64,000 bases of DNA from Brachybacterium epidermidis (GTDB taxonomy: Bacteria; Actinomycetota; Actinomycetes; Actinomycetales; Dermabacteraceae), in the NCBI RefSeq assembly GCF_015209585.1, contig NZ_JADEYR010000001.1, forward strand, positions 310,001-374,000, in the 5' to 3' direction. The position numbers were made by a program, and so were the translations under genes. Shown in pieces: positions 14,572-38,885 of the stretch. The notes beneath the pieces are model-generated. The model was not told where the DNA came from and ran no database searches. It was given only the letters and a program-made list of their open reading frames with translations. Numbering within the stretch: position 1 is the first letter of the stretch; every line of letters starts with the position of its first letter.

Positions 14572-15432
14572 TCAGCGCAGTTTCGCTCCCGATGACGCGT
14601 TGGTGCGCCCTTCGACGAACGCATTGTAGGCATCCGCGACATCATCCACGTCGCCATCGGCGACGAGCTCACCCTTCTCGATCCACAATGCGCGCGTGCA
14701 CATGGCGCGCACGGAGGCGAGGGAGTGGGACACGAAGAACACCGTGCCCGCCTTCTCTCGAATCTCCTCGATCCGCGCTGTGCTCTTCTTGCGGAACGAG
14801 GCGTCGCCCGTGGCCAGTGCCTCGTCGATCATCAGGATCTCAGGGGTGCGGATTGTGGAGATCGCGAATCGAAGACGGGAGGCCATGCCGGAGGAGTAGG
14901 AGCTCATCGGCAGGTACAGAAAGTCACCGAGCTCCGCGAACTCGGCAACCTTCGGCACGGACTCACGCACCTGTTTCGCATTGAGCCCCAGCGCGAGCCC
15001 GCCGATCATGATGTTGCGCTCCCCAGTCAGCCGCGGCAGCAGTGCGGCGTTGACGCCCATCAGCTCGGGCTCAGCAGACGTGAAGACGCGGCCGGATGTC
15101 GCTGGGAGCAGGCCAGCCACGGCTCGCAGGAGGGTGGACTTGCCCGAGCCGTTCGTGCCGAGGATGCCGATGGACTCGCCGTGATGGGCGACGAAGGACA
15201 CGCCGCGCACCGCGGGGGCCTCTGTGATGGGGCCGGTATCGGGCCGTCCGAGGCTGATGGCCTTGTCCCAGAGGGACGTGCGCTGCCGGGTGGTGCCGCC
15301 GCGACGCGCGCCGAAGACGCGGTAGGTGATGTGGAGGTCGTCGACCACCACTGAAGGAGGGCCCAGGGGCTTGCGCTCCAGACGCTTGGGGAGGTTCTCC
15401 GGGTCGATCTCGAAGTCGATGTCCTCAGTCAC
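14572..15432 (-). CDS. Polysaccharide ABC exporter ATP-binding protein (Wzt/TagH/RfbB type), copy 1
   Basis: 286 residues. Walker A is [14 protein letters not shown], the signature region is SYSSGMASRLRFAIST, Walker B is EILMIDEALATGD and the switch is FFVSHSLASV. The N-terminal ~85 residues include HITYRVFGARRGG. There is no C-terminal glycan-recognition domain, so it is the short teichoic-acid/O-antigen exporter type. The start at 15432 overlaps the permease stop by 8 nt; the two form the membrane exporter. Confidence 0.91.
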   Translation of the reverse strand: MTEDIDFEIDPENLPKRLERKPLGPPSVVVDDLHITYRVFGARRGGTTRQRTSLWDKAISLGRPDTGPITEAPAVRGVSFVAHHGESIGILGTNGSGKSTLLRAVAGLLPATSGRVFTSAEPELMGVNAALLPRLTGERNIMIGGLALGLNAKQVRESVPKVAEFAELGDFLYLPMSSYSSGMASRLRFAISTIRTPEILMIDEALATGDASFRKKSTARIEEIREKAGTVFFVSHSLASVRAMCTRALWIEKGELVADGDVDDVADAYNAFVEGRTNASSGAKLR

Positions 15433-16351
15433 GGCCGTAGGTCTCCTCCGCGCGCCAGAAGTACAGGAACCCGATGACGAAAACGACGACCGCCCACAGG
15501 ATCGCCTCCAGCCACAGCATCGGTGTCATGGGGATCAACGATTCGTTGCCGAACACGGCACGGAACAGCTCAAGGTAGATCGCGACGGGCTGGTGCAGCA
15601 GGATCGGTCGGTACCAAGCGCCCTCTGGGATCATCGCCGAGATAAGGAACATGCCGCCGGAGGCATACCGGCCGAGCGTGAGAATGAAAGGCATCGCGTT
15701 GGCGATGTCTGGCGCGCGGGCCCCCACGCGTGCGAAGAACATCGCCACGCCTGAGGAAAAGATCGCCAGCAGAACTGCCGCGAAGGGCAGCAGGAGCCAG
15801 GACCATGTAGGCCAGACGGCGCCCATTCCGGGTAGCAGACCGGTGACCATTGTGATCACGAGCATCGCCACAAGGATCGGGGCGAACAGCACCGTTTCCG
15901 TCATCACGGTCGCGAGGGGGACGACTGCCCGCGGAAAGCGGTGTGAGCGGATCAGCTGCAGATTGCTCGGGATCGAGTTCAGCCCCGACATCACGGACGT
16001 CTGAAAAAGTGTGTACGTGAAGGTGCCGATCGTGATGAACGCTGCTCGGTTGTCGATGCCCGGCGCGCTGGAGTCGAAGAGGAAGCCGAAGATGATGACG
16101 TACACAGCGGCGTCGAGCATCGGACGCAGGACCGCCCAGGACTGACCCAAATACGATCCCTGGTTCTTGGAGTATGCGCGCGACGCAGACAGGTTCCAGA
16201 TGAACGATCGCCGTTGCCAGACCTGCGCGGCATAGCGGCCGAGCGGCGGCCGGATCCCCATCTCGGTCAGACCGGCACTGGAGGCCAGCTCTGCGGCCTG
16301 CGCGGATGTCAGGCGCGGTGCGAGCAGCGCGTCTGCTGTGTGGTCAGCCAC
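15425..16351 (-). CDS. Polysaccharide ABC exporter permease (Wzm/TagG type), copy 1
   Basis: 308 residues with six hydrophobic segments of the ABC-2 family. The N-terminal cytosolic part has the family pattern YAAQVWQRRSFIWNLSASR and NQGSYLGQSWAVLRPMLDAAVY (amphipathic region before TM1), with NSIPSNLQLIRSHRFPRAV in the middle. The start is GTG 16351 because a strong GGAGGAG sits 7 nt upstream. An in-frame ATG at 16393 has no ribosome site and lies in the divergent promoter region. It works with the overlapping ATPase to export a lipid-linked glycan. Confidence 0.9.
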   Translation of the reverse strand: MADHTADALLAPRLTSAQAAELASSAGLTEMGIRPPLGRYAAQVWQRRSFIWNLSASRAYSKNQGSYLGQSWAVLRPMLDAAVYVIIFGFLFDSSAPGIDNRAAFITIGTFTYTLFQTSVMSGLNSIPSNLQLIRSHRFPRAVVPLATVMTETVLFAPILVAMLVITMVTGLLPGMGAVWPTWSWLLLPFAAVLLAIFSSGVAMFFARVGARAPDIANAMPFILTLGRYASGGMFLISAMIPEGAWYRPILLHQPVAIYLELFRAVFGNESLIPMTPMLWLEAILWAVVVFVIGFLYFWRAEETYGRD

Positions 16352-16406
16352 GTTCGTTCTCCTCCGGCCGAGCGGGCTCAACGGCTGGGCCATGGAGCTA
16401 CATCGG

Positions 16407-16412
16407 TATGAT
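16407..16412 (+). promoter_or_regulatory. -10 element (TATGAT) before the first GT2 gene
   Basis: TATGAT is followed by 8 nt and GTG 16421, consistent with a leaderless or nearly leaderless transcript. It lies in the 69-bp divergent gap to the wzm gene. Confidence 0.55.
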
Positions 16413-16420
16413 CTTGCGTC

Positions 16421-17215
16421 GTGACTGCCGCGCAGGAGATGAATCCCCAGGTGACGGTCGTCATGCCGGTCTTCAACGGCGCGAGGACCGTGCGTCAGTC
16501 GATCGTCAGCGTACTCGATCAGACCTGCTCCGATCTGGAGCTCCTCGTCGTTGACGACAGTTCTACTGATCACACAACACAGATCGTCGAGTCACTGGTA
16601 GCCCGGGATTCCCGCGTGCGCCTGATCCGTCGCGACAGCGGCGGGGGGCCAGCGGCGGCGCGTAACACCGGCATCGCCCAGGCACGCGGTCGTTATCTGG
16701 CTTTCTGCGACGCCGACGATCTGTGGCTGCCCACAAAGCTTGATCGTCAGCTCGAGCTCGCGCGCTCCACCGACGCACCGCTCATCTATTGCGGCTACCA
16801 CCGGATCGCTGCCGACTATGCGGGCTCAGCGGCGCAGTTCGTTCCTGAGGGCCGCGTCGTGCATGTCCCGACGGCGCTGACGCGCGCGGGCCTCAGACGC
16901 CGAAACGTGATCGGCAACCTCACGGCCGTACTGGATCTAAGGCGCACCGGACCGGTCTCGATGCCTGATGTGCCAGGTGCGGAGGATTGGGCGCTGTGGC
17001 TGTGCATCCTTGCCGGAGGTGCCACAGCCGCAGGCATTGATGAACCGCTGGCGCTGTACCGCGCTGCCCAGCCTGAATCACATTCTTCCGACAGACCACG
17101 GGCGTTGCTCGCCGTGTGGCGTGTCCTGCGCCAGCAGGAACAGTTGTCGGTGCCCGTCGCCGCTTTCCATCTGGTCACGGCATCAGTGGCCGCGCTGTGC
17201 AAGAACCGGATCTGA
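16421..17215 (+). CDS. Family 2 glycosyltransferase
   Basis: 264 residues. It is a GT-A fold enzyme with VTVVMPVFNGARTVRQSI, VVDDSSTDHT (nucleotide-binding Asp pair), GPAAARNTGIAQARGRYLAFCDADDLW (DXD as DAD) and the acceptor-side EDWALWL. It probably adds one sugar to the growing surface glycan on the cytosolic face. It precedes the first giant transferase by 67 bp. Donor and acceptor are not predictable. Confidence 0.88.
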   Translation: MTAAQEMNPQVTVVMPVFNGARTVRQSIVSVLDQTCSDLELLVVDDSSTDHTTQIVESLVARDSRVRLIRRDSGGGPAAARNTGIAQARGRYLAFCDADDLWLPTKLDRQLELARSTDAPLIYCGYHRIAADYAGSAAQFVPEGRVVHVPTALTRAGLRRRNVIGNLTAVLDLRRTGPVSMPDVPGAEDWALWLCILAGGATAAGIDEPLALYRAAQPESHSSDRPRALLAVWRVLRQQEQLSVPVAAFHLVTASVAALCKNRI

Positions 17216-17282: not shown

Positions 17283-20200
17283 GTGATCGTGATCTGCACC
17301 AACGAGGTCGCTGGCCCGACCGGCTACCACAAGTCCGTCGTCCAGCTGGCCAACGGGCTGCATGACGCCGGCTACCCTGTCGCGTTGCTGTCGTTCCTGG
17401 GCACGGGCGATCCCGCCGACCGGATGATCCCGCGGTGGCCGCTGAACCTCGACGTTCCCGCCTATACGCTCCGTGCCCTGCCCGCGGACGGTGGACGGCT
17501 TCTGCATGAGAACGTGCACCCGGCTGTGAAGGGCCAGGTGTACGGAACCGTCTACGAGTTCACCCCGAATCAGCTCGCCGCCCTGCGTCAGCTCAATGAT
17601 GAGCTCACTGAGGACGACACGCTGTTCCTTACCAGCCCGATCCTGGCGCTCGCTTTCCATCATGCTCTGGCGGGCGAACCGCACCGCGTGCGCACGGTGC
17701 TGCAGATCCACGGGGACTATCGGCACCACGATCAGCTGTGGTCGATCCTGCATGAGGCGCGCGATGTCATCGACACTGTCCAGACCGTGGCTGATGGCCT
17801 GCGTGAACAGTTCACACCCTTGTTCGATGCTTCCGATGTGGTGTTCATTCCGAACTTTCCTGGGGAAAGTGCGGCTGTTTCGCCGATGTCCGAGCACGAG
17901 GGCGTGAATATCGCTTTGCCGGCGTCGTTCCAGCATCGGAAGAATCAGTTGGATGCGGTGCGTGCGCTGTCGTTGATCGATGACGAGTCGGTGACGTTGA
18001 CCCTGTGGGGGAACATCAGTTCTCTCCACCCGTACTACCTTGCCGTCCGGGAGCTGGTGGAGTCGTTGGGGCTTCAGGATCGGGTGCGGATGCCGGGGTT
18101 CGGCACGGAGCAGGACGTGTATGGGTCTGCGGATATCGTGTTGATGACGTCGTTGTCTGAGGGGTTCGCCTACCCGCTTTTGGAGGCGATGTATCACTCG
18201 CGTCCCACCGTGTCGTATGACTTCGATTTCGGTCCGGCGGAGGCGATCGAGGATGGTGATAGTGGTTTCCTTGTTCCGATCGGGGATGTGGAGCTGCTGG
18301 CTGCGCGGCTGCAGGAGCTCGCCCAGGATGCGGGACAGCGCGAACGCTTCGGACGCCGCGCACGCGAACGATTCGACCAGATCTTCTCCGCGGCCGCGAT
18401 CAGCGGACGTTTCGCGGAGCTCATCGGTCCGCCGCCGGGCACGACCATTGACCTCGGGGCGCTCTTTTCCACGAGTGGTGTGGAGCCAGTGCGCACTGAC
18501 GACATCACCCATGAGGTTGTGCTCTCTCGTGCGCGGCGAATCCATCGCGTGATTGTCCGTGGTGACCTCGTTCTGCACGATGTTCGTATCGACGACGGAC
18601 ACCGGATCGTTGCTCCCACAGTGCGACGGGAAGCTTCTTCCACGGTGATCGAGTTCCCTGTCGGCGGCCCGGATGTCGTCTCGTACGCCACCCGCCGGGG
18701 TGGCGAGGAACGGCACTACCTGGCTGGCCCCGCCCGTGGACCGCAGCTTCCTATCCTTCCGCATCTGCGCCGAGATGCCGGTTTCGTTGATGGGGTCCCG
18801 CCTGTACGTGACACCATCGTTGCCGCACGTGGCGGAGCGCGGCGCGTCTCCTGGCAGACGACACCCCCGGCGATCGGGCGCTTCGCCGTCGACGCTGTGG
18901 AGGCTGTCACGTGGAAAATGCGGCAGGTTGCATCGGCTCTTGCGCCGAGCCGTGGATCGGCGGCAGCTGGGGAGTCCACGGCCGACGCGACGGCATCTCG
19001 AGCGGTAGACGCGGACACAACGCAGCCCGCATGCGCCTCGGACCCGTCGACGACGCAGGCTGCTGCGACCAATGACTCCCCGGCAGGAGCGTCCGAGACT
19101 GCGCGCCACCGAAAAGCAGCCCTGCACCTGCCGAAGGGTGTGGAAGCAGTGCGCCGAGCAGCCGGCAAGCCCATCGACGCTGCACGCACCGTCGGGCGCA
19201 TTGGCCGCACCTACGCGTCCGTAGCCGCCACCGAGCTCGTCAAGGCCGTCGCCGTCAAGCCGTCGGTGGGTGCGCATCGTGTGGTGGGTCGGCATCCGTG
19301 GTTTCCGGTGTCGGGTGGGGTGGATTCGTGTGGTGTGCCGGTGGGTGGTGCTGGTGGTGTTGAGGTGGTCAATGCTGGTGGGGCGGAGTGTCCGTCGGTT
19401 GTTGTGCGGGGTGAGTATGACTGGTTGGTGTTGAGGGATGGTGTGTCGCGGCGTCGTGTGGGGGCGCCGTGGTCGTATGGGGAGTTGTTTGAGGGGGTGT
19501 GTGCTGCGGAGCGTGATTTCGGGTTGTTCGATATCACGGGTCCGGGTGGGGTGCATGTGTGGGAGTTGGGGCGTTCGGCTCTGGTGATTCAGTTGGCGGA
19601 GGCTGCTGGGTTGTGGGGTGCGGCGTCTGCGGTGGCGGAGCCGGTGTCGGATGTGTATGTGGGTCCGAAGCGGTTGTCGTCGGCTCCGTCGGCGCGGCGG
19701 GTGGTGTTTGATTATGCGCGGCGTGGTCAGAGTGGGTATCGGACTGAGCGTTTTGTTGATGATGAGACGTTGTTTGTGGTGCAGCCGGATGCTGGGGGGT
19801 ATCCGGGTGTGGAGGAGTCGGATCTGGTGTATCCGTTCGCGGAGTTTTTGGAGTGGAAGCGTGGGTGGCGTCGTCGGTGGGCGCATTTGAGGGTGCCGGA
19901 GGTGGATGCGCGTCCGTTTGAGGAGGCGTTGAGTCGGTCGTTGGGTGTGCGGGTTGATCTGGGTGATCATCTGCGGAATCGGTTGGCGAAGTTTTTGGCG
20001 GAGCGGGAGTTCTTCACGCCGGTGTTTGAGCGGGTGGCGCCGGAGGAGGTGTTGATCGCGTCAAGTCATTGGTGGGCTGGTATCGCGGCTGCTGCGGAGC
20101 GGTCTGGTGCGCGGGTGTCGGATGTGCAGTATGCGTTGACGAGTCGTTTTGCGCCGAGTTTCTGGTTCGGTGGGCGGCCGCATTATGGGGCGTCGAGGTT

Positions 20201-20723
20201 TTATGCGTGGTCGGATCTGTGGGCGGGTCGGACGAATGCGTATGACGAGCATGTGGTGGTGCCGCGTGTGATGCCGGAGTTGCGGGCTGCGTTGGAGGGT
20301 CCGGGGCTGGATCCGGTGTGGGATGTGTGTGTGATCTCGCAGCCGCGGGTGTTGCGTCGGATTCTGGGGTTCGTGCGGGAGTTGGTGGTGGAGCGTCCGG
20401 AGTTGCGGGTGGTGGTGGCTCCGCATCCTGCGCAGCGGGGGATCATTGGTGGTGAGTTGGCGGCTGCTGGTGTGGAGTCGCGTGTGGAGGTTGCTGCGGA
20501 GGACACGTTGTCGGTGGTGCGGCGGTCGCGGATGGCGGTGGGGACGTTCTCGACGTCGTTGTGGGAGGCGGCAGCGTTGGGGTGTCCGACGTTCGTGATC
20601 GAGGTGCCGGGGTATGAGGAGACGTTGGAGGATGTGTCCTCGGGGTTGTTCCGGCTGGCGCGGTCGCCGCATGATCTGGTGCCGTTCGAGGTGCCGGAGT
20701 CTCGCCACCACATCTTCGAGTGA
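17283..20723 (+). CDS. Giant bifunctional glycosyltransferase A (TagE/TarM-like GT4 + C-terminal GT-B-like domain)
   Basis: 1,146 residues from GTG 17283. The start is supported by alignment to copy B, which begins with the same V-I-V-I-C-T-N. Residues 1-~380 are a GT4 domain with GPTGYHKSV near the N-terminus, LTLWGNISSLHPYY, and the donor-site EGFAYPLLE (Glu293/Glu301), then SYDFDFGPAEAIEDGDSGFLV, typical of poly(glycerol-phosphate) glucosyltransferases. Residues ~390-530 look like a beta-rich module. Residues ~530-658 are an Ala/Thr-rich linker. Residues 659-1146 form a second domain with ASSHWWAGIAAAAE, VVVAPHPAQRG and GTFSTSLWEAAALGCPTFV, like GT-B surface-carbohydrate transferases. Two segments are shared at DNA level with copy B. 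Polymerase or decorating role is inferred. Confidence 0.85.
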   Translation: MIVICTNEVAGPTGYHKSVVQLANGLHDAGYPVALLSFLGTGDPADRMIPRWPLNLDVPAYTLRALPADGGRLLHENVHPAVKGQVYGTVYEFTPNQLAALRQLNDELTEDDTLFLTSPILALAFHHALAGEPHRVRTVLQIHGDYRHHDQLWSILHEARDVIDTVQTVADGLREQFTPLFDASDVVFIPNFPGESAAVSPMSEHEGVNIALPASFQHRKNQLDAVRALSLIDDESVTLTLWGNISSLHPYYLAVRELVESLGLQDRVRMPGFGTEQDVYGSADIVLMTSLSEGFAYPLLEAMYHSRPTVSYDFDFGPAEAIEDGDSGFLVPIGDVELLAARLQELAQDAGQRERFGRRARERFDQIFSAAAISGRFAELIGPPPGTTIDLGALFSTSGVEPVRTDDITHEVVLSRARRIHRVIVRGDLVLHDVRIDDGHRIVAPTVRREASSTVIEFPVGGPDVVSYATRRGGEERHYLAGPARGPQLPILPHLRRDAGFVDGVPPVRDTIVAARGGARRVSWQTTPPAIGRFAVDAVEAVTWKMRQVASALAPSRGSAAAGESTADATASRAVDADTTQPACASDPSTTQAAATNDSPAGASETARHRKAALHLPKGVEAVRRAAGKPIDAARTVGRIGRTYASVAATELVKAVAVKPSVGAHRVVGRHPWFPVSGGVDSCGVPVGGAGGVEVVNAGGAECPSVVVRGEYDWLVLRDGVSRRRVGAPWSYGELFEGVCAAERDFGLFDITGPGGVHVWELGRSALVIQLAEAAGLWGAASAVAEPVSDVYVGPKRLSSAPSARRVVFDYARRGQSGYRTERFVDDETLFVVQPDAGGYPGVEESDLVYPFAEFLEWKRGWRRRWAHLRVPEVDARPFEEALSRSLGVRVDLGDHLRNRLAKFLAEREFFTPVFERVAPEEVLIASSHWWAGIAAAAERSGARVSDVQYALTSRFAPSFWFGGRPHYGASRFYAWSDLWAGRTNAYDEHVVVPRVMPELRAALEGPGLDPVWDVCVISQPRVLRRILGFVRELVVERPELRVVVAPHPAQRGIIGGELAAAGVESRVEVAAEDTLSVVRRSRMAVGTFSTSLWEAAALGCPTFVIEVPGYEETLEDVSSGLFRLARSPHDLVPFEVPESRHHIFE
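17894..18336 (+). repeat. Shared segment A, copy 1 (identical to 22401-22843)
   Basis: 443 bp reading identically in both giant transferase genes by base-by-base comparison. It encodes the catalytic C-terminal half of the GT4 domain (residues ~204-351). Codons end often in T or are TTG, unlike flanking sequence. Both borders are abrupt; beyond them the genes differ at many third positions. Confidence 0.93.
19256..20723 (+). repeat. Shared segment B, copy 1 (near-identical to 23871-25338)
   Basis: 1,468 bp encoding the whole C-terminal domain up to and including the stop codon. It matches the second copy with no gaps and, by my reading, eight base differences, all changing the amino acid. Wobble positions are T/G-rich (TTG, GGT, TAT, GTG). 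Confidence 0.93.
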
Positions 20724-21739
20724 CGCGCATGGACATCCAGAACCATTACTACGGTCATAGCGCGGTGCTGGCCCGATACGCCGGTCTCGGATCCGTGCGT
20801 CATATCAACGGCCTGCTCCAGCACGGCTGGACGGTCCGCTCGCCCACGCTCGTCCATTTCTCCGACTTCGCGCGCCTGCCCCGCGGGGCAGGGCGCTTCG
20901 TCTGGAGCCACAGTGCACGCGGCTGGGACCCCGAGCGCGACCCGTTCCCGACAATCCCCGTCGGCGCCCCGTTCCTCTACCTGAGCGAGCTGACGGCGCA
21001 GCAGAAGATCGAGCCGCTCGGTCGAACCGTCGCATTCCCCGTGCACGACACCCGGCTGGTGCGGCTCGAGCACAGCGACGATGCCTTCGCCCGTCAGCTC
21101 GCTGAGCGCGGCGGGCCCTCGCTGGTCTGCCTGCACCCCGAGGACCTCGACCGGCCCGAGAAGCGACAGGTCTGGGCCGCCCACGGCCATCAGGTGGTCA
21201 GCGCCGGTGACCGCCGTGATCCGCTGTTCCTGAGCCGTGTGCTGCACCTCGCTCGGGGCGCGCGACGGGTCGTGTCCAACCAGCTCTCGACCGCCGTCGT
21301 CTACGCCGCTGCCGAAGGCACCCCGACCGAGATCTACGGTGACGAGGTCGCCATCGGATCGCTCGGCACCGACGTCGCGCGACGCACTCGCGAGCTCTGG
21401 CCGGAGTTCCATGACGAATCAGATACGGCGACGAGACAGAGAATTGCACGGGCGGAGCTCGGTGCGCAGCATGTGCTCTCGCCGGAGGAACTGCGTGCTG
21501 CGCTCGGCTGGGATCGGCGCTCCCCGGTGCCGTTCCTCAGCTACTGGGCAGGCGCTCCGGTACGCAAGGCTGGTGCAGTTCTCGGCGTCGTCAAGAGACC
21601 CGAGGGCGCACAGGACGCCGGATCCGGTGCATCGCCCGTGGCCTTCCTCGCCCATCCGCTCAGTCACCTGCCCAGCCGTCTTCCGCGCGTGCCCGATGCG
21701 CAGATGCTGATCGCTGAGCCGGTCACTCCCACTCCCTGA
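20720..21739 (+). CDS. Putative surface-glycan glycosyltransferase-like protein between the two giant transferases
   Basis: 339 residues. The start is GTG 20720, overlapping the stop of transferase A (GTGA); ATG 20729 is an alternative. It begins HYYGHSAVLARYAGLGSVRHINGLLQHGW (quoted in parts), a pattern I associate with uncharacterised surface-carbohydrate proteins with a GT-B-like fold. GARRVVSNQLSTAVVYAAAEGTPTEIYGD near residue 190-215 resembles the nucleotide-sugar side of such enzymes. No membrane segments are seen. The nearby pse genes make a nonulosonic-acid transferase role possible, but this is inference. Confidence 0.6.
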   Translation: MTRMDIQNHYYGHSAVLARYAGLGSVRHINGLLQHGWTVRSPTLVHFSDFARLPRGAGRFVWSHSARGWDPERDPFPTIPVGAPFLYLSELTAQQKIEPLGRTVAFPVHDTRLVRLEHSDDAFARQLAERGGPSLVCLHPEDLDRPEKRQVWAAHGHQVVSAGDRRDPLFLSRVLHLARGARRVVSNQLSTAVVYAAAEGTPTEIYGDEVAIGSLGTDVARRTRELWPEFHDESDTATRQRIARAELGAQHVLSPEELRAALGWDRRSPVPFLSYWAGAPVRKAGAVLGVVKRPEGAQDAGSGASPVAFLAHPLSHLPSRLPRVPDAQMLIAEPVTPTP

Positions 21740-21789
21740 CCCGCCCCCGCGCTCTGTACGACCCTCATCCGAGGAAAGGCCCTTCCGCT

Positions 21790-24700
21790 GTGATCGTGAT
21801 CTGCACCAACGAGATCGCCGGCCCGACCGGCTACCACAAGTCCGTTGTCCAGCTGGCCAACGGGCTGCACGAGGCCGGCTACCCGGTGGCGCTGCTCGGC
21901 TTCCTCGGAACAGGCGATGTCTCCAGCCGGATGATCCCGCGGTGGCCGCTGGACCTCGACGTCCCCGCATTCACCCTACGCACCCTGCCCGCCCGGGGCG
22001 GGCGCCTGCAGCATCGCAACGTCCATCCTGAGATGCACGGAGCCCTGGGCGCCCTGCAGTACGCCTTCACGGCGAACGAGCTGGCTGCGCTCCGTGATCT
22101 CAACGCGGCGCTCTCGGACCAGGACACGATCATCTTCACCGCACCCGTGCAGGCGCTCGCCTTCCAGCGCGCCCTCAGCGGCGATGCGCGCCGACCCCGC
22201 ACGGTGCTGCAGATCCACGGCGACTACAGCCATCACGCCGAGCTACGCGAGCCGCTCCTCGCAGCCCGAGGCATGATCGACCGAGTCCAGACCGTCGCGG
22301 ACGGACTTCGCGCACAGTTCACACCGCCCTTCGATGCCTCCGATGTGGTGTTCATCCCGAACTTCCCCGGAGAGGGGACGACGCCGCTGGAGCGCACTGC
22401 GCACGAGGGCGTGAATATCGCTTTGCCGGCGTCGTTCCAGCATCGGAAGAATCAGTTGGATGCGGTGCGTGCGCTGTCGTTGATCGATGACGAGTCGGTG
22501 ACGTTGACCCTGTGGGGGAACATCAGTTCTCTCCACCCGTACTACCTTGCCGTCCGGGAGCTGGTGGAGTCGTTGGGGCTTCAGGATCGGGTGCGGATGC
22601 CGGGGTTCGGCACGGAGCAGGACGTGTATGGGTCTGCGGATATCGTGTTGATGACGTCGTTGTCTGAGGGGTTCGCCTACCCGCTTTTGGAGGCGATGTA
22701 TCACTCGCGTCCCACCGTGTCGTATGACTTCGATTTCGGTCCGGCGGAGGCGATCGAGGATGGTGATAGTGGTTTCCTTGTTCCGATCGGGGATGTGGAG
22801 CTGCTGGCTGCGCGGCTGCAGGAGCTCGCCCAGGATGCGGGACTGCGTGAGCGTTTTGGACGCCGCGCCCGCGAACGATTCGACGCCACATTCGCGACCC
22901 CTGCCGTCGAACAGCAGTATCGCGACTTCCTCGGCCCGCAGGGGAACATGCTCGATATCCCCGGCCTGTTCAGCGCGGAGGGCGGGGAGCCGATCGCCGC
23001 CGAGGCGATCACTCACGGCCTGCGCCGCCCCCAGGGACGACTGCTGCACAGGATCACTGTGGCCTCCCCGATCGAACTGCACGATGTGCGGATCGATGAC
23101 GGTCACAGCGTGCGCGCGCCCCGGGTGCGCCGTGATGCGACCAGAACCGTCATCGAGTTCCCTGCGGGCGCGCCCTGCGTTGTTTCGTACACCACTGCGC
23201 CAGGCTCGCAGGACCGCCACTACCTCGCCAGCACCACACGTGGCCACGAGCTCGAGATCCTTGCGCACCTGCGGCGCGATGCTGACTACGGCGCTGGCCG
23301 GCCCGGCGTGGTGGAGACCCTGCGCCTGCCCTCCGGCGGATCCGGCGTGGCCCGTCCGATGCAGTCCCTCACCTACCTCGCTCGACGAGCGCCGGGGGAC
23401 GTCCTCTGGAAGTCCCGCCAGATCATCGCCGCGTATGGCGCACGGCGCCGCGCTCACCGCGAGCTCTCCGCAGCTACGTCGGCGCAGTCCGACGCACCGC
23501 TGGAAGCACCGGGCCATGAGCATGAGGACATCGAGAGCCGTGAACGCGACAGCGCCGCCGGTGCGACGGTGAGCGCCGCGAGCGCCACGGCTGTGGAACC
23601 GGACAGCAGCTTCGACATGCCGACGACATTCCGAGATCGCGCTGCGCAACCCCGAGCCGAGGCGGCCCCGGATACGGCGGCACCGCGCACACCCACCGAG
23701 AGCGCGCAGACCGGCTATCTGCTCGATGCGGCCCCGGATGCGACGGAGGCGCTGCACGGGCAGAACGGGAGCGCTGCGTCCGGGCGTCTCAGCGCTGCCG
23801 TGGAGCAGGTCAGATCCGTGGGCACCTTCGCCGCTTCCTCGGCTGTCTCAGCGATGGCGCGCGCGGTGACCAAGCCGTCGGTGGGTGCGCATCGTGTGGT
23901 GGGTCGGCATCCGTGGTTTCCGGTGTCGGGTGGGGTGGATTCGTGTGGTGTGCCGGTGGGTGGTGCTGGTGGTGTTGAGGTGGTCAATGCTGGTGGGGCG
24001 GAGTGTCCGTCGGTTGTTGTGCGGGGTGAGTATGACTGGTTGGTGTTGAGGGATGGTGTGTCGCGGCGTCGTGTGGGGGCGCCGTGGTCGTATGGGGAGT
24101 TGTTTGAGGGGGTGTGTGCTGCGGAGCGTGATTTCGGGTTGTTCGATATCACGGGTCCGGGTGGGGTGCATGTGTGGGAGTTGGGGCGTTCGGCTCTGGT
24201 GATTCAGTTGGCGGAGGCTGCTGGGTTGTGGGGTGCGGCGTCTGCGGTGGCGGAGCCGGTGTCGGATGTGTATGTGGGTCCGAAGCGGTTGTCGTCGGCT
24301 CCGTCGGCGCGGCGGGTGGTGTTTGATTATGCGCGGCGTGGTCAGAGTGGGTATCGGACTGAGCGTTTTGTTGATGATGAGACGTTGTTTGTGGTGCAGC
24401 CGGATGCTGGGGGGTATCCGGGTGTGGAGGAGTCGGATCTGGCGTATCCGTTCGCGGAGTTTTTGGAGTGGAAGCGTGGGTGGCGTCGTCGGTGGGCGCA
24501 TTTGAGGGTGCCGGAGGCGGATGCGCGTCCGTTTGAGGAGGCGTTGAGTCGGTCGTTGGGTGTGCGGGTTGATCTGGGTGATCATCTGCGGAATCGGTTG
24601 GCGAAGTTTTTGGCGGAGCGGGAGTTCTTCACGCCGGTGTTTGAGCGGGTGGCGCCGGAGGAGGTGTTGATCGCGTCAAGTCATTGGTGGGCTGGTATCG

Positions 24701-25338
24701 CGGCTGCTGCGGAGCGGTCTGGTGCGCGGGGGTCGGATGTGCAGTATGCGTTGACGAGTCGTTTTGCGCCGAGTTTCTGGTTCGGTGGGCGGCCGCATTA
24801 TGGGGCGTCGAGGTTTTATGCGTGGTCGGATCTGTGGGCGGGTCGGACGAATGCGTGTGACGAGCATGTGGTGGTGCCGCGTGTGATGCCGGAGTTGCGG
24901 GCTGCGTTGGAGGGTCCGGGGCTGGATCCGGTGTGGGATGTGTGTGTGATCTCGCAGCCGCGGGTGTTGCGTCGGATTCTGGGGTTCGTGCGGGAGTTGG
25001 TGGTGGAGCGTCCGGAGTTGCGGGTGGTGGTGGCTCCGCATCCTGCGCAGCGGGGGATCATTGGTGGTGAGTTGGCGGCTGCTGGTGTGGAGTCGCGTGT
25101 GGAGGTTGCTGCGGAGGACACGTTGTCGGTGGTGCGGCGGGCGCGGGTGGCGGGGGGGACGTTCTCGACGTCGTTGTGGGAGGCGGCAGCGTTGGGGTGT
25201 CCGACGTTCGTGATCGAGGTGCCGGGGTATGGGGAGACGTTGGAGGATGTGTCCTCGGGGTTGTTCCGGCTGGCGCGGTCGCCGCATGATCTGGTGCCGT
25301 TCGAGGTGCCGGAGTCTCGCCACCACATCTTCGAGTGA
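21790..25338 (+). CDS. Giant bifunctional glycosyltransferase B (TagE/TarM-like GT4 + C-terminal GT-B-like domain)
   Basis: 1,182 residues, paralogue of transferase A with the same architecture. It has a GT4 domain (residues 1-~380, EGFAYPLLE motif), a beta-rich module (~390-530), a long low-complexity Ala/Glu/Asp-rich linker (~555-690) and the C-terminal domain (695-1182). A GAGGAAAGG ribosome site precedes GTG 21790. Residues 1-203 and 352-530 are clearly homologous but diverged from A, and the linkers are unrelated, while residues 204-351 and 695-1182 come from the shared DNA segments. Eight residues in the C-terminal domain differ from A, including Tyr to Cys, Val to Gly and Glu to Gly, so activity of this copy is less certain. 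Confidence 0.85.
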   Translation: MIVICTNEIAGPTGYHKSVVQLANGLHEAGYPVALLGFLGTGDVSSRMIPRWPLDLDVPAFTLRTLPARGGRLQHRNVHPEMHGALGALQYAFTANELAALRDLNAALSDQDTIIFTAPVQALAFQRALSGDARRPRTVLQIHGDYSHHAELREPLLAARGMIDRVQTVADGLRAQFTPPFDASDVVFIPNFPGEGTTPLERTAHEGVNIALPASFQHRKNQLDAVRALSLIDDESVTLTLWGNISSLHPYYLAVRELVESLGLQDRVRMPGFGTEQDVYGSADIVLMTSLSEGFAYPLLEAMYHSRPTVSYDFDFGPAEAIEDGDSGFLVPIGDVELLAARLQELAQDAGLRERFGRRARERFDATFATPAVEQQYRDFLGPQGNMLDIPGLFSAEGGEPIAAEAITHGLRRPQGRLLHRITVASPIELHDVRIDDGHSVRAPRVRRDATRTVIEFPAGAPCVVSYTTAPGSQDRHYLASTTRGHELEILAHLRRDADYGAGRPGVVETLRLPSGGSGVARPMQSLTYLARRAPGDVLWKSRQIIAAYGARRRAHRELSAATSAQSDAPLEAPGHEHEDIESRERDSAAGATVSAASATAVEPDSSFDMPTTFRDRAAQPRAEAAPDTAAPRTPTESAQTGYLLDAAPDATEALHGQNGSAASGRLSAAVEQVRSVGTFAASSAVSAMARAVTKPSVGAHRVVGRHPWFPVSGGVDSCGVPVGGAGGVEVVNAGGAECPSVVVRGEYDWLVLRDGVSRRRVGAPWSYGELFEGVCAAERDFGLFDITGPGGVHVWELGRSALVIQLAEAAGLWGAASAVAEPVSDVYVGPKRLSSAPSARRVVFDYARRGQSGYRTERFVDDETLFVVQPDAGGYPGVEESDLAYPFAEFLEWKRGWRRRWAHLRVPEADARPFEEALSRSLGVRVDLGDHLRNRLAKFLAEREFFTPVFERVAPEEVLIASSHWWAGIAAAAERSGARGSDVQYALTSRFAPSFWFGGRPHYGASRFYAWSDLWAGRTNACDEHVVVPRVMPELRAALEGPGLDPVWDVCVISQPRVLRRILGFVRELVVERPELRVVVAPHPAQRGIIGGELAAAGVESRVEVAAEDTLSVVRRARVAGGTFSTSLWEAAALGCPTFVIEVPGYGETLEDVSSGLFRLARSPHDLVPFEVPESRHHIFE
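22401..22843 (+). repeat. Shared segment A, copy 2
   Basis: Identical to 17894-18336 (offset 4,507 bp), same reading frame, same domain position (residues 204-351). Confidence 0.93.
23871..25338 (+). repeat. Shared segment B, copy 2
   Basis: Counterpart of 19256-20723 (offset 4,615 bp). All eight differences seen have A or T in copy 1 and G or C in copy 2. Confidence 0.93.
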
Positions 25339-25414: not shown

Positions 25415-26488
25415 ATGACTTCCACCCAGTGCGCTTCCCCCCAGTCGTTCCGGATCGGAGACGTCCCGGTCGGTGTGCAGCACCCTCCCTTCGTCGCCGC
25501 GGAGATGTCCGGCAACCACAACGGCGACCTCGGCCGCGCCCTCGCGATCGTCGACGCGATCGCGGAGACCGGCGCCCCGGCGATCAAGCTCCAGACCTAC
25601 ACGGCGGACACGATCACCATCGACGCCGACGGCCCCGCCTTCCGCATCACCGACAGCCACGGCCTGTGGGGCGGACGGAACCTCTACAGCCTCTACCAGG
25701 AGGCGCACACCCCGTGGGAGTGGCACGAGGCGATCTTCGCCCGCGCCCGCGAGCACGGCATGATCCCGTTCTCCAGCCCCTTCGACGACACGGCCGTCGA
25801 CCTGCTGGAGGACCTCGGCGCCGAGGTCTACAAGATCGCCTCGCTCGAGATCGGCGACATCCCGCTGCTGCGCAAGGTGGCCCGCACCGGCAAGCCGGTG
25901 ATCCTCTCCACCGGCGCCGCCGACGCCGGCGACGTGGACCTCGCCGTCAAGACCCTCCGCGCCGAGGGCAACGACCAGATCGCCGTGCTCGGCTGCACCT
26001 CCTCCTACCCGGCGACCGCCGAGGCGTCGAACCTGCGCACCATCCCGGTGCTCGCCGACACCTGGAAGGTCGTCGGCGGCCTCTCCGACCACACCAAGGG
26101 CATCGGCGTGAGCGTCGCGGCCGTCGCCTTCGGCGCCGCGATCCTCGAGAAGCACGTCACGCTGCGCCGCGCCGACGGCGGCGTCGACTCCGACTTCTCC
26201 CTCGAGCCCGAGGAGCTGAAGGCTCTGGTCGACGAGTCCTACGCCGCCTGGCTCGCGCTCGGCGAGGTGCACGTCGGCCCGACGAAGTCCGAGGCCGAGT
26301 CCCAGCGCCTGCGCCGCTCGCTGTTCGTGGTGAAGGACGTGCGCGCCGGCGAGGAGATCACCGCGGAGAACGTCCGCTCGATCCGCCCCGCGGGCGGCCT
26401 CGAGCCGCGCTATCTCGACGTGGTCCTCGGCCGCACCTTCGCGAAGGACGTCGAGCGCGGGACGCCGCTCAGCTGGGATCTCGTCTGA
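25415..26488 (+). CDS. pseI: Pseudaminic acid synthase PseI (NeuB family)
   Basis: 357 residues. It condenses 2,4-diacetamido-2,4,6-trideoxy-L-altrose with PEP to form pseudaminic acid in the cytosol. The NeuB-type TIM barrel shows FVAAEMSGNHNGDL (metal/PEP site), AIKLQTYTADTIT, FSSPFDDTAVDLL, YKIASLEIGD, GCTSSYPA, GGLSDHTKGI and EKHVTLRR. A C-terminal SAF antifreeze-like domain (~residues 300-357) has RRSLFVVKDVRAGEEITAENVRSIRP in pieces. The LWGGRNLYSLYQEAHTPWEWH stretch is PseI-like rather than NeuB-like. It converges with pseG, the coding ends overlapping by 20 bp. Confidence 0.9.
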   Translation: MTSTQCASPQSFRIGDVPVGVQHPPFVAAEMSGNHNGDLGRALAIVDAIAETGAPAIKLQTYTADTITIDADGPAFRITDSHGLWGGRNLYSLYQEAHTPWEWHEAIFARAREHGMIPFSSPFDDTAVDLLEDLGAEVYKIASLEIGDIPLLRKVARTGKPVILSTGAADAGDVDLAVKTLRAEGNDQIAVLGCTSSYPATAEASNLRTIPVLADTWKVVGGLSDHTKGIGVSVAAVAFGAAILEKHVTLRRADGGVDSDFSLEPEELKALVDESYAAWLALGEVHVGPTKSEAESQRLRRSLFVVKDVRAGEEITAENVRSIRPAGGLEPRYLDVVLGRTFAKDVERGTPLSWDLV

Positions 26489-27968
26489 TCAGCACGTCGA
26501 ACGCGCCGTCGTCGCGATCCGGATCGAGCACGTAGCCGGCCCCGGCGAACAGCCGCTGGGACGGCAGGTTGTCGGGAAGGATCGCGGCGACGACGACCGC
26601 GCCGGGGTGACGTGCCCCGAAGGCCGCCTCGCCGGCGGCGAGCACCGGACGGGAGAGCCCGTGACCGCGCGCCTCGGGGGCGAGGGTGATGGACACCTCC
26701 CACTCCTCGCCCGCCGACGCGCCCTCCAGCGCGTCGAAGCGCACGGTGCCGACGGGCGCGCCGCCCCGCTCGACGACGTACAGCTCGCGGGACGGGTTCT
26801 CCAGCGTTCGCGCGTACCAGCCGGAGTGGGACTCCCACGGCACCGGGTCGGAGTCGCGGGAGACCATCCGGGTCTCCGGGTCGTTGCGCCAGCGCAGCAG
26901 CAGGGGCGAGTCCGACGGCGTCGCGGGCCGCGCCGCGACCGGCGCCTCCGCCGCTCCGATCCGTCGCGCGAGCGCCGCGTCCCAGGCGGCGACGATCCGC
27001 TCCGCGCCGTGGCCGTCGACCTTCTCCCGGCCCACCGGGGTCCAGCTGCGCATCGCGCGCAGGTCCGCGACCGCCCGCTCCACCTCCGCGGTCGCTGCGG
27101 GACGGTCGGCGCGCACCTGCTCGAGGGTGCCGAGCCCGCGGGCGATCCGCTCGGCGAGGGCGGCCTCGTAGCCGGCGCGCTGGTTCTCCACCACCGCGAC
27201 CAGCAGGCTCGGCACGCCGATGCAGGCCAGCTCCCAGGCCGTGGTGCCCGCGGCGCTGACCACGAGGTCCGCCGCGCTCGCCCGCTCGAGGAAGGCGGGG
27301 GAGGGGGCGAGCAGCTCGACGTCCTCCCCGGCCTCGGCCCGGACCGCATCCCAGCCGTGCTCGGGCGCGATGACGCTCACGTGCGCGACGCCCTCGGCGG
27401 CGGCGCAGACGGCGGCGAGGGTCCCGGCGGCGCCGGTCGCGTCGGTGCCGCCCATGACGATCAGCACCCGGACGCCGCGGCTGACGTCGTGGTCCTCGTC
27501 GACCCGCTTCTCCCGCGCCGCGCGCACCTCGGCGCGCATCGGGGCGTAGGCGATGCCGAGGAGCACCTCGCCGCTGCCGTCCCCGGGGCGGCCGATTCGC
27601 TCGGCGCGGATCGTGGAGTCGACGACGACGTCGGCGGGGCGGCGGCCGAAGGTGCCGTCCTCCATCGAGGACAGCAGCGCGCCGCCGGCACGCACCTGGT
27701 CCCGGGCGTCGGCCCCGATCGTGTAGTCGTCGACGTGGACGACGCTCGCGCCCTGCTCGGCGGCGAGGATCCCGAGGTCCTCGGGCGCCGCGGTCACCTC
27801 GAGACCGGACTCGGCCAGCAGGTGCCGGGCGAGCGGCGCCTCGATCGAGCCGGCGACCACCACGGTGTGCCCGGCGGCGCGGGCGGCGTCGGCGACGGAG
27901 AGCGCCCGCACCAGGTGGCCGATGCCTCCCGACGGGGTCGCGTCGCATCGGATCGCGACGTGGGTCAT
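26469..27968 (-). CDS. PseG-PseH fusion: UDP-sugar hydrolase with C-terminal GNAT acetyltransferase
   Basis: 499 residues from ATG 27968. Residues 1-~335 match PseG, the GT-B-like hydrolase that removes UDP from UDP-2,4-diacetamido-2,4,6-trideoxy-L-altrose: IRCDATPSGGIGHLVRAL (catalytic-site His), VHVDDY, LIVMGGTDATG, SAAGTTAWELACIGVPSLLV and ENQRAGY. Residues ~340-499 are a GNAT fold (LLRWRNDPETRMVSRDS, VGTVRFD, EVSITLAPEARGHGLSRPV), like PseH, which N-acetylates the 4-amino sugar one step earlier. The fusion puts two pathway steps in one chain. Its start overlaps the cytidylyltransferase stop by 4 nt. Confidence 0.87.
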   Translation of the reverse strand: MTHVAIRCDATPSGGIGHLVRALSVADAARAAGHTVVVAGSIEAPLARHLLAESGLEVTAAPEDLGILAAEQGASVVHVDDYTIGADARDQVRAGGALLSSMEDGTFGRRPADVVVDSTIRAERIGRPGDGSGEVLLGIAYAPMRAEVRAAREKRVDEDHDVSRGVRVLIVMGGTDATGAAGTLAAVCAAAEGVAHVSVIAPEHGWDAVRAEAGEDVELLAPSPAFLERASAADLVVSAAGTTAWELACIGVPSLLVAVVENQRAGYEAALAERIARGLGTLEQVRADRPAATAEVERAVADLRAMRSWTPVGREKVDGHGAERIVAAWDAALARRIGAAEAPVAARPATPSDSPLLLRWRNDPETRMVSRDSDPVPWESHSGWYARTLENPSRELYVVERGGAPVGTVRFDALEGASAGEEWEVSITLAPEARGHGLSRPVLAAGEAAFGARHPGAVVVAAILPDNLPSQRLFAGAGYVLDPDRDDGAFDVLIRRDPS

Positions 27969-28702
27969 CCGTCGGCCAGCTTCTTCTGGCGCACGCCCGC
28001 GTTGATCCGCGTGATGTCGGGGCGCGAGCGCAGCAGGTCCACCACCTCGTGCCACGCCGGCGCGCGGTCCCCGAGCTCGGCGACGACGGCGTCGAGCATC
28101 TCGCCGTCCTCGACGGTGTCCAGGGTCGCCCGCAGGTCGTTCGCGGCCGGCTGGACGACCAGGCCCATGGTGCGGAAGTAGCGCTTGGAGTCGTAGAGAT
28201 AGGAGGTGACGTGCGTGCGGTGGAAGCTCTCGGCCTCCGCATCGGCCGTCAGCAGCGCCTCCCGCGAGGCGAGCTCGACGTCCAGGCCGCGCGGCAGCGT
28301 GCGCACCAGCGTGGTCGCGGTGTAGTCCAGCGAGGGATCGGCCTTCCACAGCCCCACCACGGCGGAGATCAGCGAGGGGTCCGCCAGCGGGCAGTCCGCG
28401 GTCAGGCGCACCACCGCATCGGCCCCGGTCTCCTCCAGGGCGAGCACGAAGCGGGAGAGGACGTCGTCCTCGCTGCCGCGGACCACCTGCACGCCCAGCT
28501 CCTCGCCGAGCTCGGCGACGGCGTCGTCCCCGGGGGCGGTGGACGTCGCCACCACGACGTCCTCGATGCCCGAGGCGGCGCGGGCGGCCCGCACCATCCA
28601 CCCCAGGACCGGTCGGCCGCCGAGCGGCCGGAGCACCTTCCCGGGGAGGCGGGAGGAGCCTGTACGAGCTTGGATCACTGCGACGGTTCGTGTATCGGTC
28701 AC
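27965..28702 (-). CDS. pseF: SpsF/PseF-type CMP-pseudaminic acid cytidylyltransferase
   Basis: 245 residues. The GTG start at 28702 puts VAVIQARTGSSRLPGKVLRPLGGRPV (nucleotide-binding N-terminus, shown in parts) at residue ~7; the frame is open upstream but without family similarity. DVVVATSTAPGDDAV, RGSEDDVLSRF and VRLTADCPLADP follow, as in SpsF-family cytidylyltransferases. In a Pse locus this enzyme makes CMP-Pse, the transferase donor. Symbol assigned by context; the sequence class is SpsF rather than NeuA-like PseF. It diverges from pseB with 71 bp between starts. Confidence 0.82.
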   Translation of the reverse strand: MTDTRTVAVIQARTGSSRLPGKVLRPLGGRPVLGWMVRAARAASGIEDVVVATSTAPGDDAVAELGEELGVQVVRGSEDDVLSRFVLALEETGADAVVRLTADCPLADPSLISAVVGLWKADPSLDYTATTLVRTLPRGLDVELASREALLTADAEAESFHRTHVTSYLYDSKRYFRTMGLVVQPAANDLRATLDTVEDGEMLDAVVAELGDRAPAWHEVVDLLRSRPDITRINAGVRQKKLADG

Positions 28703-28773
28703 CGTGCCATAATGGCACGCGCGTCCCGGGTCGCCCGGGTGCCGCCCCAACCCCGTCGACGAAAGAGATCTGC

Positions 28774-29763
28774 ATGTCGCTCCTCAGCGGTGCCTCCATC
28801 CTCATCACCGGTGGGACCGGCTCCTTCGGCAAGGCCTTCCTGCGTGAAGTGCTCGACAACCACAACCCGCGACGGGTCGTCGTCTTCTCGCGGGACGAGC
28901 TGAAGCAGTACGAGGTCCGCAACCAGTTCGGCAACGACCCCCGCCTGCGCTGGTTCATCGGTGACATCCGCGACGAGCGCCGCCTCGCCCGTGCGCTGAA
29001 GGACGTGGACTACGTCGTCCACGCCGCCGCGCTCAAGCAGGTCGACACCGCGGAGTACAACCCCTTCGAGTTCGTCAAGACCAACATCCTCGGCAGCCAG
29101 AACGTCATCGAGTCGTCCATCGACGCCGGCGTGAAGAAGGTCGTGGCCCTGTCCACCGACAAGGCCTCCAGCCCGATCAACCTCTACGGCGCCACCAAGC
29201 TCACCGCCGACAAGCTCTTCATCACGGGCAACCACTACGCCGCCAGCTACGACACCCGCTTCGCCGTGGTGCGCTACGGCAACGTGATGGGCTCGCGCGG
29301 CTCGGTCATCCCCTTCTTCCGCCGCCTCGGCGAGGAGGGCAAGCCGCTGCCGATCACGGACATGACCTGCACCCGCTTCTTCATCACCCTGCCGCAGGCC
29401 GTGCAGATGGTGATCGACACCTTCGAGCTCATGCAGGGCGGCGAGCTGCTCGTCCCGCGCATCCCCTCCATGAAGGTCACCGACCTCGCCCAGGCCGTCG
29501 TGCCCGGCGCCGAGATGGTCGACGTGGGCCTGCGCCCCGGCGAGAAGCTCCACGAGGAGATGATCAGCCCCGAGGAGGGCCGCCGCGCGGTCATCATCGA
29601 GGACGGCAAGTACTTCATCATCCAGCCCGACCTCGCGACCTGGGGCTACAAGGCCCCCGAGGGCGCCGTGCCGGTCGAGCCCGGGTTCTTCTTCCGCTCG
29701 GACTCCAACGACCAGTGGTACACCCAGCAGGAGATCGCGGACATCATCGAGGGAGGGATCTGA
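28774..29763 (+). CDS. pseB: UDP-GlcNAc 4,6-dehydratase (5-inverting) PseB
   Basis: 329 residues, first step of pseudaminic acid synthesis. Rossmann GGTGSFGK at residues 13-20, HAAALKQVDTAEYNPFEF, the catalytic STDKASSPINLYGATK (Asp129, Lys130, Tyr138, matching D132/K133/Y141 of H. pylori FlaA1) and VRYGNVMGSRGSVIP. RPGEKLHEEM lies near the C-terminus. ATG 28774 is used because the conserved domain begins 6 residues later. pseC follows at 1 bp distance. Confidence 0.93.
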   Translation: MSLLSGASILITGGTGSFGKAFLREVLDNHNPRRVVVFSRDELKQYEVRNQFGNDPRLRWFIGDIRDERRLARALKDVDYVVHAAALKQVDTAEYNPFEFVKTNILGSQNVIESSIDAGVKKVVALSTDKASSPINLYGATKLTADKLFITGNHYAASYDTRFAVVRYGNVMGSRGSVIPFFRRLGEEGKPLPITDMTCTRFFITLPQAVQMVIDTFELMQGGELLVPRIPSMKVTDLAQAVVPGAEMVDVGLRPGEKLHEEMISPEEGRRAVIIEDGKYFIIQPDLATWGYKAPEGAVPVEPGFFFRSDSNDQWYTQQEIADIIEGGI

Positions 29764-37596: not shown

Positions 37597-38865
<1,269 letters not shown>

Positions 38866-38885
38866 ACCGCCGGAAGGACTCCACG

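Follow-up and report, generated by a model that had tools for sequence, protein, structure and literature searches.

Two neighboring glycosyltransferase genes of Brachybacterium epidermidis, called A and B here, are in all likelihood old tandem paralogues whose two most conserved modules were recently overwritten by ectopic gene conversion, with A the more likely donor. On their coding strand, the shared blocks bear a one-way layer of A/C-to-G/T changes that neither ordinary mutation nor codon choice readily explains. We analyzed the pair within a stretch of 64,000 nucleotides (the window; contig NZ_JADEYR010000001.1, positions 310,001 to 374,000), in which all positions below are numbered.

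Results

Gene A (17283..20723, plus strand) encodes 1,146 amino acids from a GTG start at the residue where its homologues start and is composed of a GT4 domain (about residues 1 to 385), a middle beta module (about 400 to 490), a variable linker, and a C-terminal module (658 to 1146). Gene B (21790..25338, plus strand; 1,182 amino acids) has the same architecture, as the sequence-only reading that preceded this work had described, and a longer linker. The N-terminal domain has a GT-B fold and a GT4 domain match, and R219, K220, E293, and E301, which we take to be the E-x7-E and R/K donor-site residues of GT4 glycosyltransferases, are invariant among nine aligned sequences. The C-terminal module is poorly resolved in the full-length structure model (mean pLDDT of 60 overall), and a sequence search of the PDB with this module gave nothing below an E value of 0.17. 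The scores of several GT4 enzymes come close to that of TarM, so that the polyol-phosphate acceptor of TarM/TagE wall teichoic acid glycosyltransferases is one candidate among others for A and B; TarM chains have about 490 amino acids and, unlike A and B, no 490-residue C-terminal module, and their beta domain has a different place in the chain. We infer that each enzyme adds two sugars, the GT4 domain a hexose or HexNAc and the C-terminal module possibly pseudaminic acid.

The genes belong to a Brachybacterium pseudaminic-acid locus, a context not in the earlier reading, and probably build a pseudaminic-acid wall sugar chain. Downstream on the plus strand lie the pseudaminic acid synthase PseI (25415..26488; 457.7 bits, cutoff 340.25), the UDP-GlcNAc 4,6-dehydratase PseB (28690..29763; 461.4 bits, cutoff 407.75), and the aminotransferase PseC (29765..30892; 438.6 bits, cutoff 423.5), all of which exceed their curated cutoffs. 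On the minus strand, a GNAT acetyltransferase domain (26531..26930) and a cytidylyltransferase (27965..28750; PF02348, 100.1 bits) would be PseH-like and PseF-like, respectively, judging by their position; no PseG was identified at the locus where these two were found. Upstream of A are a GT2 glycosyltransferase (16421..17215, plus strand; best NCBIfam model TuaG, 188.7 bits, below the cutoff of 400) and, on the minus strand (14572..16573), an ABC ATPase (14572-15432) with an ABC-2 permease (15425-16573) whose NCBIfam matches to polysaccharide exporters are all below the cutoff. Between A and B lies a 339-amino-acid gene (20720..21739, plus strand) that matches nothing in Pfam or NCBIfam and is weakly similar to the C-terminal module (30% over 93 columns, E = 0.006). 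In each of the six other Brachybacterium loci fetched, a homologue of this gene comes after gene A or, where there is just one such gene, after that one.

Two blocks on the plus strand are shared between A and B. Block 1 (17894..18336 in A, 22401..22843 in B) is an exact 443-bp match covering residues 205 to 352, the donor-binding Rossmann half of the GT4 domain, and block 2 (19256..20723 in A, 23871..25338 in B) corresponds to the C-terminal module in full and is 1,468 bp long, with 8 mismatches. The sequence-only reading had these coordinates and identities right to the base, and its view of the blocks as structural units in a mosaic with diverged domains between them also held. Where A and B have the same residue, the codon is identical at a frequency of 0.52 in codons 27 to 204 (n = 112) and 0.41 in codons 353 to 655 (n = 123), versus 1.00 in codons 205 to 352 and 0.99 and 1.00 in the C-terminal module. 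Outside the blocks synonymous sites are near saturation, and the pair is old there. In the two longest stretches, identical synonymous-capable codons continue for 464 and 143 codons, whereas shuffling 2,000 times gave a 99th percentile of 54 for the longest run. Codons 1 to 26 of A (17283..17362, plus strand), in which 23 of 25 same-residue codons match B, are perhaps a third short tract.

The pair shows sharp-edged tracts of identity in diverged paralogues, with the two copies grouping together in the tract and by slot elsewhere, as in a conversion pair. Ectopic conversion would have replaced the donor-binding half of the GT4 domain and the entire C-terminal module, and its tracts would end where homology gives out, in the linker, or drops. 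The recent gene conversion proposed earlier is supported by the codon runs and by exchange in relatives. The modules that convert are the most conserved and so presumably the most able to recombine, a simpler reason than diversification.

All eight differences in block 2 are nonsynonymous, with A or T in copy A wherever copy B has G or C, and six of them directly follow GG in copy B; in the alignment, copy A mostly keeps the residues typical of relatives at these sites. They look like sequencing error or relaxed selection and, because they may be base-call errors, do not date the conversion. The direction A to B seems the more likely one because A keeps the relatives' residues, has less third-position C left of block 1 (10/30 versus 14/30 in codons 151 to 180 and 5/23 versus 9/23 in codons 181 to 203), and shows in its GT4N a mild G+T shift (A/C-to-G/T versus reverse changes, 22:10) that is absent from B (7:8); the counts left of block 1 are small and the evidence for direction is weak.

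It is very improbable that an assembler copied the modules of A into B. The genome is a draft of 30 contigs, and the copy-B differences, amino acid changing and of A/T-to-G/C type after GG, would suit base-call error, but both genes lie within a single contig of 602 kb, and their flanks and linkers differ. This contig also contains two copies of a 1,707-bp repeat that are 99.6% identical, showing that the assembly placed repeats longer than the blocks, and the same module is homogenized in a relative with a single-contig genome (G002).

Conversion in this genome is matched by module exchange in relatives. In trees built per module with LG+G4, without a mixture model, slots A and B form separate groups for the middle module (98/98), whereas in the GT4 tree the A copy of this genome (WIN_A), G016_A, and G009 group with B-slot types. 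A and B of this genome group together in GT4C, ct1, and ct2; the G002 pair does so only in ct2. In the middle module, copies group by slot. With groups named post hoc, after the trees had been seen, approximately unbiased (AU) tests rejected a slot-A clade for GT4N (p = 0.0035; 2.6e-5 without WIN_A) and the GT4 grouping for the middle module (p = 0.0064; 0.00044 without WIN_A). In G002, A and B are sisters in the second half of the C-terminal module (98/98), where a grouping of G002_A with G004_A is rejected (AU p = 0.007), while in the first half the G002 pair is rejected (AU p = 0.006). Three of the 13 AU tests did not reject (p = 0.14, 0.21, and 0.32), the first of these being the GT4N placement of WIN_A itself. 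Longest-run tests gave P = 0.0015 for G002, P = 0.012 for G004, and P = 0.011 for G016, whose run lies in GT4N; a Humibacter pair showed no sign of conversion in this test (P = 0.95). In these trees the middle module stays with its slot across the genus, whereas the modules for GT4 and the C terminus move or are homogenized.

The one-way composition of the blocks, which the sequence-only reading did not mention, is extreme. Coding-strand G+T is 0.73 in block 2, whereas the maximum among 3,533 other windows is 0.58; the largest G+T deviation elsewhere (L043) sits at an rRNA operon. At 4-fold sites, C, G, and T are 0.14, 0.65, and 0.19 in block 1 and 0.01, 0.75, and 0.24 in block 2, and the blocks are unlike the remaining parts of A and B; the linker between them has a 4-fold C of 0.34 in A and 0.41 in B, with an abrupt shift at 19256. 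Leucine in the G+T-style sequence is encoded by TTG 28 times versus 9 times by CTG. Of 1,247 open frames from 384 kb of this genome, none is as extreme as the frames of these two genes; apart from them, two frames pass a loose threshold (0.14 and 0.20 versus 0.00). Block 1 holds a C-rich patch (codons 241 to 255, third-position C of 0.53).

Counted by direction, block 2 has 106 A/C-to-G/T changes (60 C>T, 22 C>G, 16 A>G, and 8 A>T) versus 4 reverse changes, with ratios of 34:2, 21:2, and 51:0 at codon positions 1, 2, and 3. Apart from A/C-to-G/T changes, block 2 of A has only 17 changes at 908 conserved sites, the lowest count among 11 Brachybacterium copies (23 to 92 in the others), and its 13 within-class changes are mid-range (4 to 30 in the other ten). 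Beneath this one-way layer, block 2 has the look of an ordinary Brachybacterium module. Outside the blocks, gene A has a weaker shift, the middle module (13:4) adding to that in GT4N.

Two converted relatives differ from this pattern. G002 is shifted at third positions only (34:6, against 5:6 and 4:3 at positions 1 and 2); its C-terminal module has the largest G+T value (0.624, whereas the maximum among 4,010 other windows is 0.603), and six of 1,415 open frames are depleted in C and enriched in G, two of them in the C-terminal module and four elsewhere. G004 has no such shift (11:27 and 19:17).

Several simple causes were set aside. G+T richness is not common to all repeats, since two other long repeats in the sample of this genome have G+T of 0.46 and 0.47; by eye, both resemble transposase genes or insertion sequences. 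GC-biased gene conversion would go in the wrong direction, the tracts not being enriched in G+C (0.61 and 0.64 in the blocks, versus 0.63 to 0.72 in other parts of A and B and 0.71 in the window). A G-quadruplex trigger is rejected, block 2 of A being free of G3 motifs, of which base shuffles give a mean of 3.4 and codon shuffles one of 0.35; B holds one such motif (25139-25158), which spans three of the copy-B differences. The Chi-like GCTGGTGG is uninformative, with 6 of 24 plus-strand sites in the window falling in the four blocks.

Discussion

Among the explanations for the layer, an import of the blocks from another organism with NNG/NNT codon usage, followed by copying between A and B, is possible but unlikely. 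The foreign codon style, with TTG as the leading leucine codon and A and B as the most extreme frames, would fit, as would the C-rich patch in block 1, which recalls a recombinant, and the mid-range number of within-class changes; a donor at G+T equilibrium would likewise show few reverse changes. However, since changes other than A/C to G/T are fewest in block 2 of A, the donor would have to be as close as the genus and hence a close relative: a distant donor is unlikely, which does not apply to one within the genus, because block 2 resembles an ordinary Brachybacterium module under a one-way layer. Against import, the style is absent from the other nine Brachybacterium copies, and neither protein nor DNA searches of phages, plasmids, and viral contigs matched the blocks. 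A contig scan with just two peptide patterns gave five loci, and the three outside the genus lack the G+T style.

The boldest fit, which we consider a doubtful candidate, is strand-asymmetric biased gene conversion under the mismatch nuclease NucS. Earlier reports give G-T, G-G, and T-T mismatches as NucS targets and describe recombination of nonidentical DNA as lowered by NucS (PMC8228993, PMC5290159, PMC11551744). A:A, A:C, and C:C mismatches in heteroduplex would escape, so that A/C-to-G/T changes would spread while the reverse would be rejected. This genome has NucS (140 bits, over the cutoff) and no MutS match, and its only MutL match covers 51 positions (21.9 bits versus a cutoff of 180); the one-way class is {A,C} to {G,T}, at all three codon positions, and is strongest in the shared blocks. 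On the other side, preferential invasion by one strand would be needed, and by our reasoning a break in the linker would give the opposite sign. The converted G002 and G004 are shifted at third positions only or not at all, gene A is weakly shifted outside the blocks, and the two other long near-identical repeats are not G+T rich, although these are insertion-sequence-like. Moreover, short-patch repair by NucS is described in one mycobacterial study. The wider proposition, that in NucS actinobacteria (no MutSL) repeated conversion ratchets cassettes toward one-strand G+T at all three codon positions, overriding even the conservation of the protein, we regard as decidedly speculative; the twin genes would then be an extreme, visible case of such a drive.

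A local strand-biased mutation process (transcription, R-loops, or deamination) is improbable. C>T is the commonest class, the bias lies on the coding strand, and the GT4N and middle module of A are mildly shifted, but deamination cannot yield the 30 of 106 changes that are C>G and A>T, and the linker of the same gene keeps its 4-fold C up to the abrupt edge of block 2.

That the pair is a programmed device for glycan diversification like pilE/pilS is extremely unlikely: module exchange among copies is real and the locus makes a surface-type sugar, but the exchange makes copies alike, block 2 of A lacks a G3 G-quadruplex motif, and instead of silent donor copies with one expression locus the genome has just A and B, all three matches of a protein search falling within them, so that the surface-glycan diversification proposed earlier is not supported. 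Neisseria pgl allele exchange and pilE/pilS conversion (PMC11130364) offer a likeness in recombination of glycosylation genes and conversion at a surface locus, while the present genome has no further copies or demonstrated phase or antigenic variation.

Gene conversion between paralogues is already well known. The paralogous regions of Mycobacterium tuberculosis, another NucS-using actinobacterium, also have short identity tracts in diverged paralogues, and a preprint on them suggests that a recombination-linked repair asymmetry could reshape their composition (PMC13061034). There, T>C/A>G changes are enriched and the median tract is 101 bp (PMC13061034), whereas here one strand shifts from A/C to G/T and a tract takes in an entire enzyme module. 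GC-biased gene conversion shares with our case a directional substitution tied to recombination, but the blocks are poorer in G+C than the window and the bias is toward one-strand G+T. In the open-licence literature, we know of no description of a converted cassette with about a hundred one-way A/C-to-G/T changes and little else altered.

For glycobiology, the pair shows which wall-polymer enzyme modules move between copies and which stays in its slot. Whatever its cause, the G+T layer preserves the natural trace of a directional process that is concentrated where DNA recombines. Should NucS be responsible, the layer would link mismatch-repair specificity to genome composition across a large phylum, and if the NucS drive is true, G+T-rich coding islands would be markers of conversion hotspots in actinobacterial genomes.

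Two shared blocks in the twin glycosyltransferase genes

Gene A (17283-20723) and gene B (21790-25338), the multi-domain glycosyltransferase genes of the pseudaminic-acid locus, share two blocks whose extents were as claimed by the sequence-only reading: block 1, the donor-binding half of the GT4 domain (17894-18336 and 22401-22843), shows no difference in its 443 bp, and block 2, the whole C-terminal module (19256-20723 and 23871-25338), carries 8 differences in 1,468 bp. The divergence described between the blocks was likewise borne out. These parts are homologous and old, with an identical codon in 0.52 of the same-residue codons over codons 27 to 204 and 0.41 over codons 353 to 655, while the corresponding fraction within the blocks is 0.99 to 1.00. 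The longest identical runs of synonymous-capable codons between A and B were 464 and 143, whereas 2,000 shuffles put the 99th percentile at 54. Codons 1 to 26, where 23 of 25 same-residue codons are identical, are perhaps a third short tract.

All 8 differences in block 2 are A/T in copy A and G/C in copy B, 6 of them lie directly after GG, and all are non-synonymous (8 changes of this kind at random would all be non-synonymous with a probability of 0.09). In the alignment, copy B leaves residues common to its relatives at most of the 8 sites (e.g., Y to C and E to G). This would suit base-call error, or relaxed constraint on a decaying enzyme in B, and these possibilities make the differences unfit for dating the event.

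The window sits in a 602-kb contig of a draft genome (3.07 Mb, 30 contigs), and this contig carries a 1,707-bp transposase-like repeat twice (99.6%; fetched loci L037:16337-18043 and L040:17682-19388). Galactan-type genes at 37660-41884 (UDP-galactopyranose mutase, a GlfT2-like transferase, and an ABC-2 permease) may, by their predicted products, mark a second wall polymer locus nearby. Two distant stretches, 9985-10395 and 60285-60686, also resemble each other, at 73% across 190 bp and at 79% across 81 bp.

Module exchange in related genomes

The C-terminal module is present in 7 of 38 searched Brachybacterium genomes, B. epidermidis included, with two copies in four (B. epidermidis, G002, G004, and G016) and a single copy in three. 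An order-wide search gave matches in 10 of 396 genomes, two of them weak. A pattern-limited contig scan found at least five loci, an incomplete count given that it missed G002, G009, G016, and G022; one of these five is a tandem pair in Humibacter albus. The Brachybacterium gene order is GT2, A, a 339-amino-acid gene, B (if present), and then pseI. In G016, an IS21-type element with matches to Mu-type transposase and IstB splits gene B between its GT4 and middle-module pieces (locus L017), which lie ∼2.6 kb apart.

Trees of the five modules (LG+G4, 16 copies) are mutually in conflict. In the middle-module tree, Brachybacterium copies separate by slot, i.e., by position in the locus (98/98); in the GT4 trees, the A-slot copies WIN_A (copy A of the window), G016_A, and G009 fall with B-slot types. 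In AU tests, for which the groups were chosen after the trees were seen, the slot-A clade was rejected by data from the GT4 N half (p 0.0035; 2.6e-5 without WIN_A), and the GT4 grouping was rejected by middle-module data (p 0.0064; 0.00044 without WIN_A). Three of 13 AU tests gave no rejection (p 0.14, 0.21, and 0.32), among them the one on WIN_A in the GT4 N half (p 0.14), whose placement there is therefore tentative. In the single-contig genome G002, the two halves of the C-terminal module differ: the second half pairs A with B as sisters (98/98), the first half does not, and AU tests reject the alternatives (p 0.007 and 0.006). Run tests for within-genome identity gave P values of 0.0015 in G002, 0.012 in G004, and 0.011 in G016 (run in the GT4 N half), and in the Humibacter pair showed no signal of homogenisation (P 0.95). 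Taken together, these trees and tests show that conserved modules have been repeatedly exchanged or homogenised in Brachybacterium, with the middle module bound to its slot. The earlier observation is right, and its interpretation holds for conversion and for the correspondence of blocks to modules; the proposed surface-glycan diversification is unproven. Gene conversion here is an already known kind of event.

A one-way G+T layer in block 2

Third positions of block 2 are almost free of C (4-fold sites: C 1%, G 75%, T 24%, and A 1%). The 4-fold C content is 14% in block 1, 34 to 48% outside the blocks in A and B, and 68% in the neighboring pseI. Coding-strand G+T reaches 0.73 in block 2. In a 384-kb sample of the same genome (the window plus sixteen 20-kb stretches), the largest deviation elsewhere among 3,533 overlapping 1,400-bp windows is 0.58, at an rRNA operon. 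The same sample holds 1,247 open frames no shorter than 150 codons, and the most extreme of these are A and B (best-window 4-fold C+A, 0.00); a loose threshold was also passed by two others (0.14 and 0.20). A control scan of G002 gave an open frame (L065:5001-5360; 4-fold C 0.01, G 0.51, and T 0.48), which may be an off-frame reading.

At nucleotide sites that the nine remaining Brachybacterium copies conserve, block 2 of WIN_A carries G/T in place of A/C at 106 of 415 and A/C in place of G/T at 4 of 493 (34:2, 21:2, and 51:0 at codon positions 1, 2, and 3), and copy B shows 109 versus 7. By comparison with outgroups, 87 of 104 changes from A/C to G/T are derived in this species, as are 2 of the 4 that run the other way. 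Amino acid changes at conserved residues gain versus lose G+T at codon positions 1 and 2 in a ratio of 18:3, compared with 29:62 summed over nine control copies (Fisher p 1e-5); codon preference alone does not account for the excess. Outside the blocks the shift is mild in gene A (GT4 N half, 22:10; middle module, 13:4) and weaker in gene B (7:8 and 9:3).

Candidate causes of the layer

Biased conversion shaped by the mismatch specificity of NucS, the mismatch nuclease of this genome, fits the class of changes. In published work, NucS prefers G-T, G-G, and T-T mismatches (PMC8228993), oligonucleotides giving C-C, A-A, G-A, and A-C mismatches, and not those giving G-G or G-T, yield many survivors in M. 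smegmatis (PMC11551744), and recombination at 90% identity is reduced tenfold by NucS (PMC5290159). If the A/C-rich strand invades, donor G/T against resident A/C would always give an A:A, A:C, or C:C mismatch. A nucS product was found in the B. epidermidis genome, which gave no MutS match and only a brief match to the MutL model, far below the cut-off. However, the strand polarity is an assumption, and on mechanistic grounds the opposite sign would be expected from a linker break; moreover, the shift in G002 is confined to third positions (34:6), and G004 is homogenised too, yet without a shift (11:27 and 19:17). An M. tuberculosis preprint (PMC13061034) makes a related general suggestion, although its bias differs from the one in B. 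epidermidis.

Setting the A/C-to-G/T class aside leaves WIN_A with 17 changes at 908 sites; the other ten of the 11 copies all have more (23 to 92 at 908 to 1,016 sites). Its 13 within-class changes (A-C and G-T) are mid-range (4 to 30 in the other ten). Block 2 thus resembles an ordinary Brachybacterium module under a one-way layer, which disfavors a remote donor; import from a close relative, with a donor inside the genus at G+T equilibrium, is possible. Transcription-linked strand bias ought to be shared by the linker, whose 4-fold C is nevertheless 0.34 to 0.41, arguing against this source. Deamination yields transitions only, yet 30 of the 106 changes are C>G or A>T.

The surprising part of these genes is the one-way G+T layer, not the conversion.
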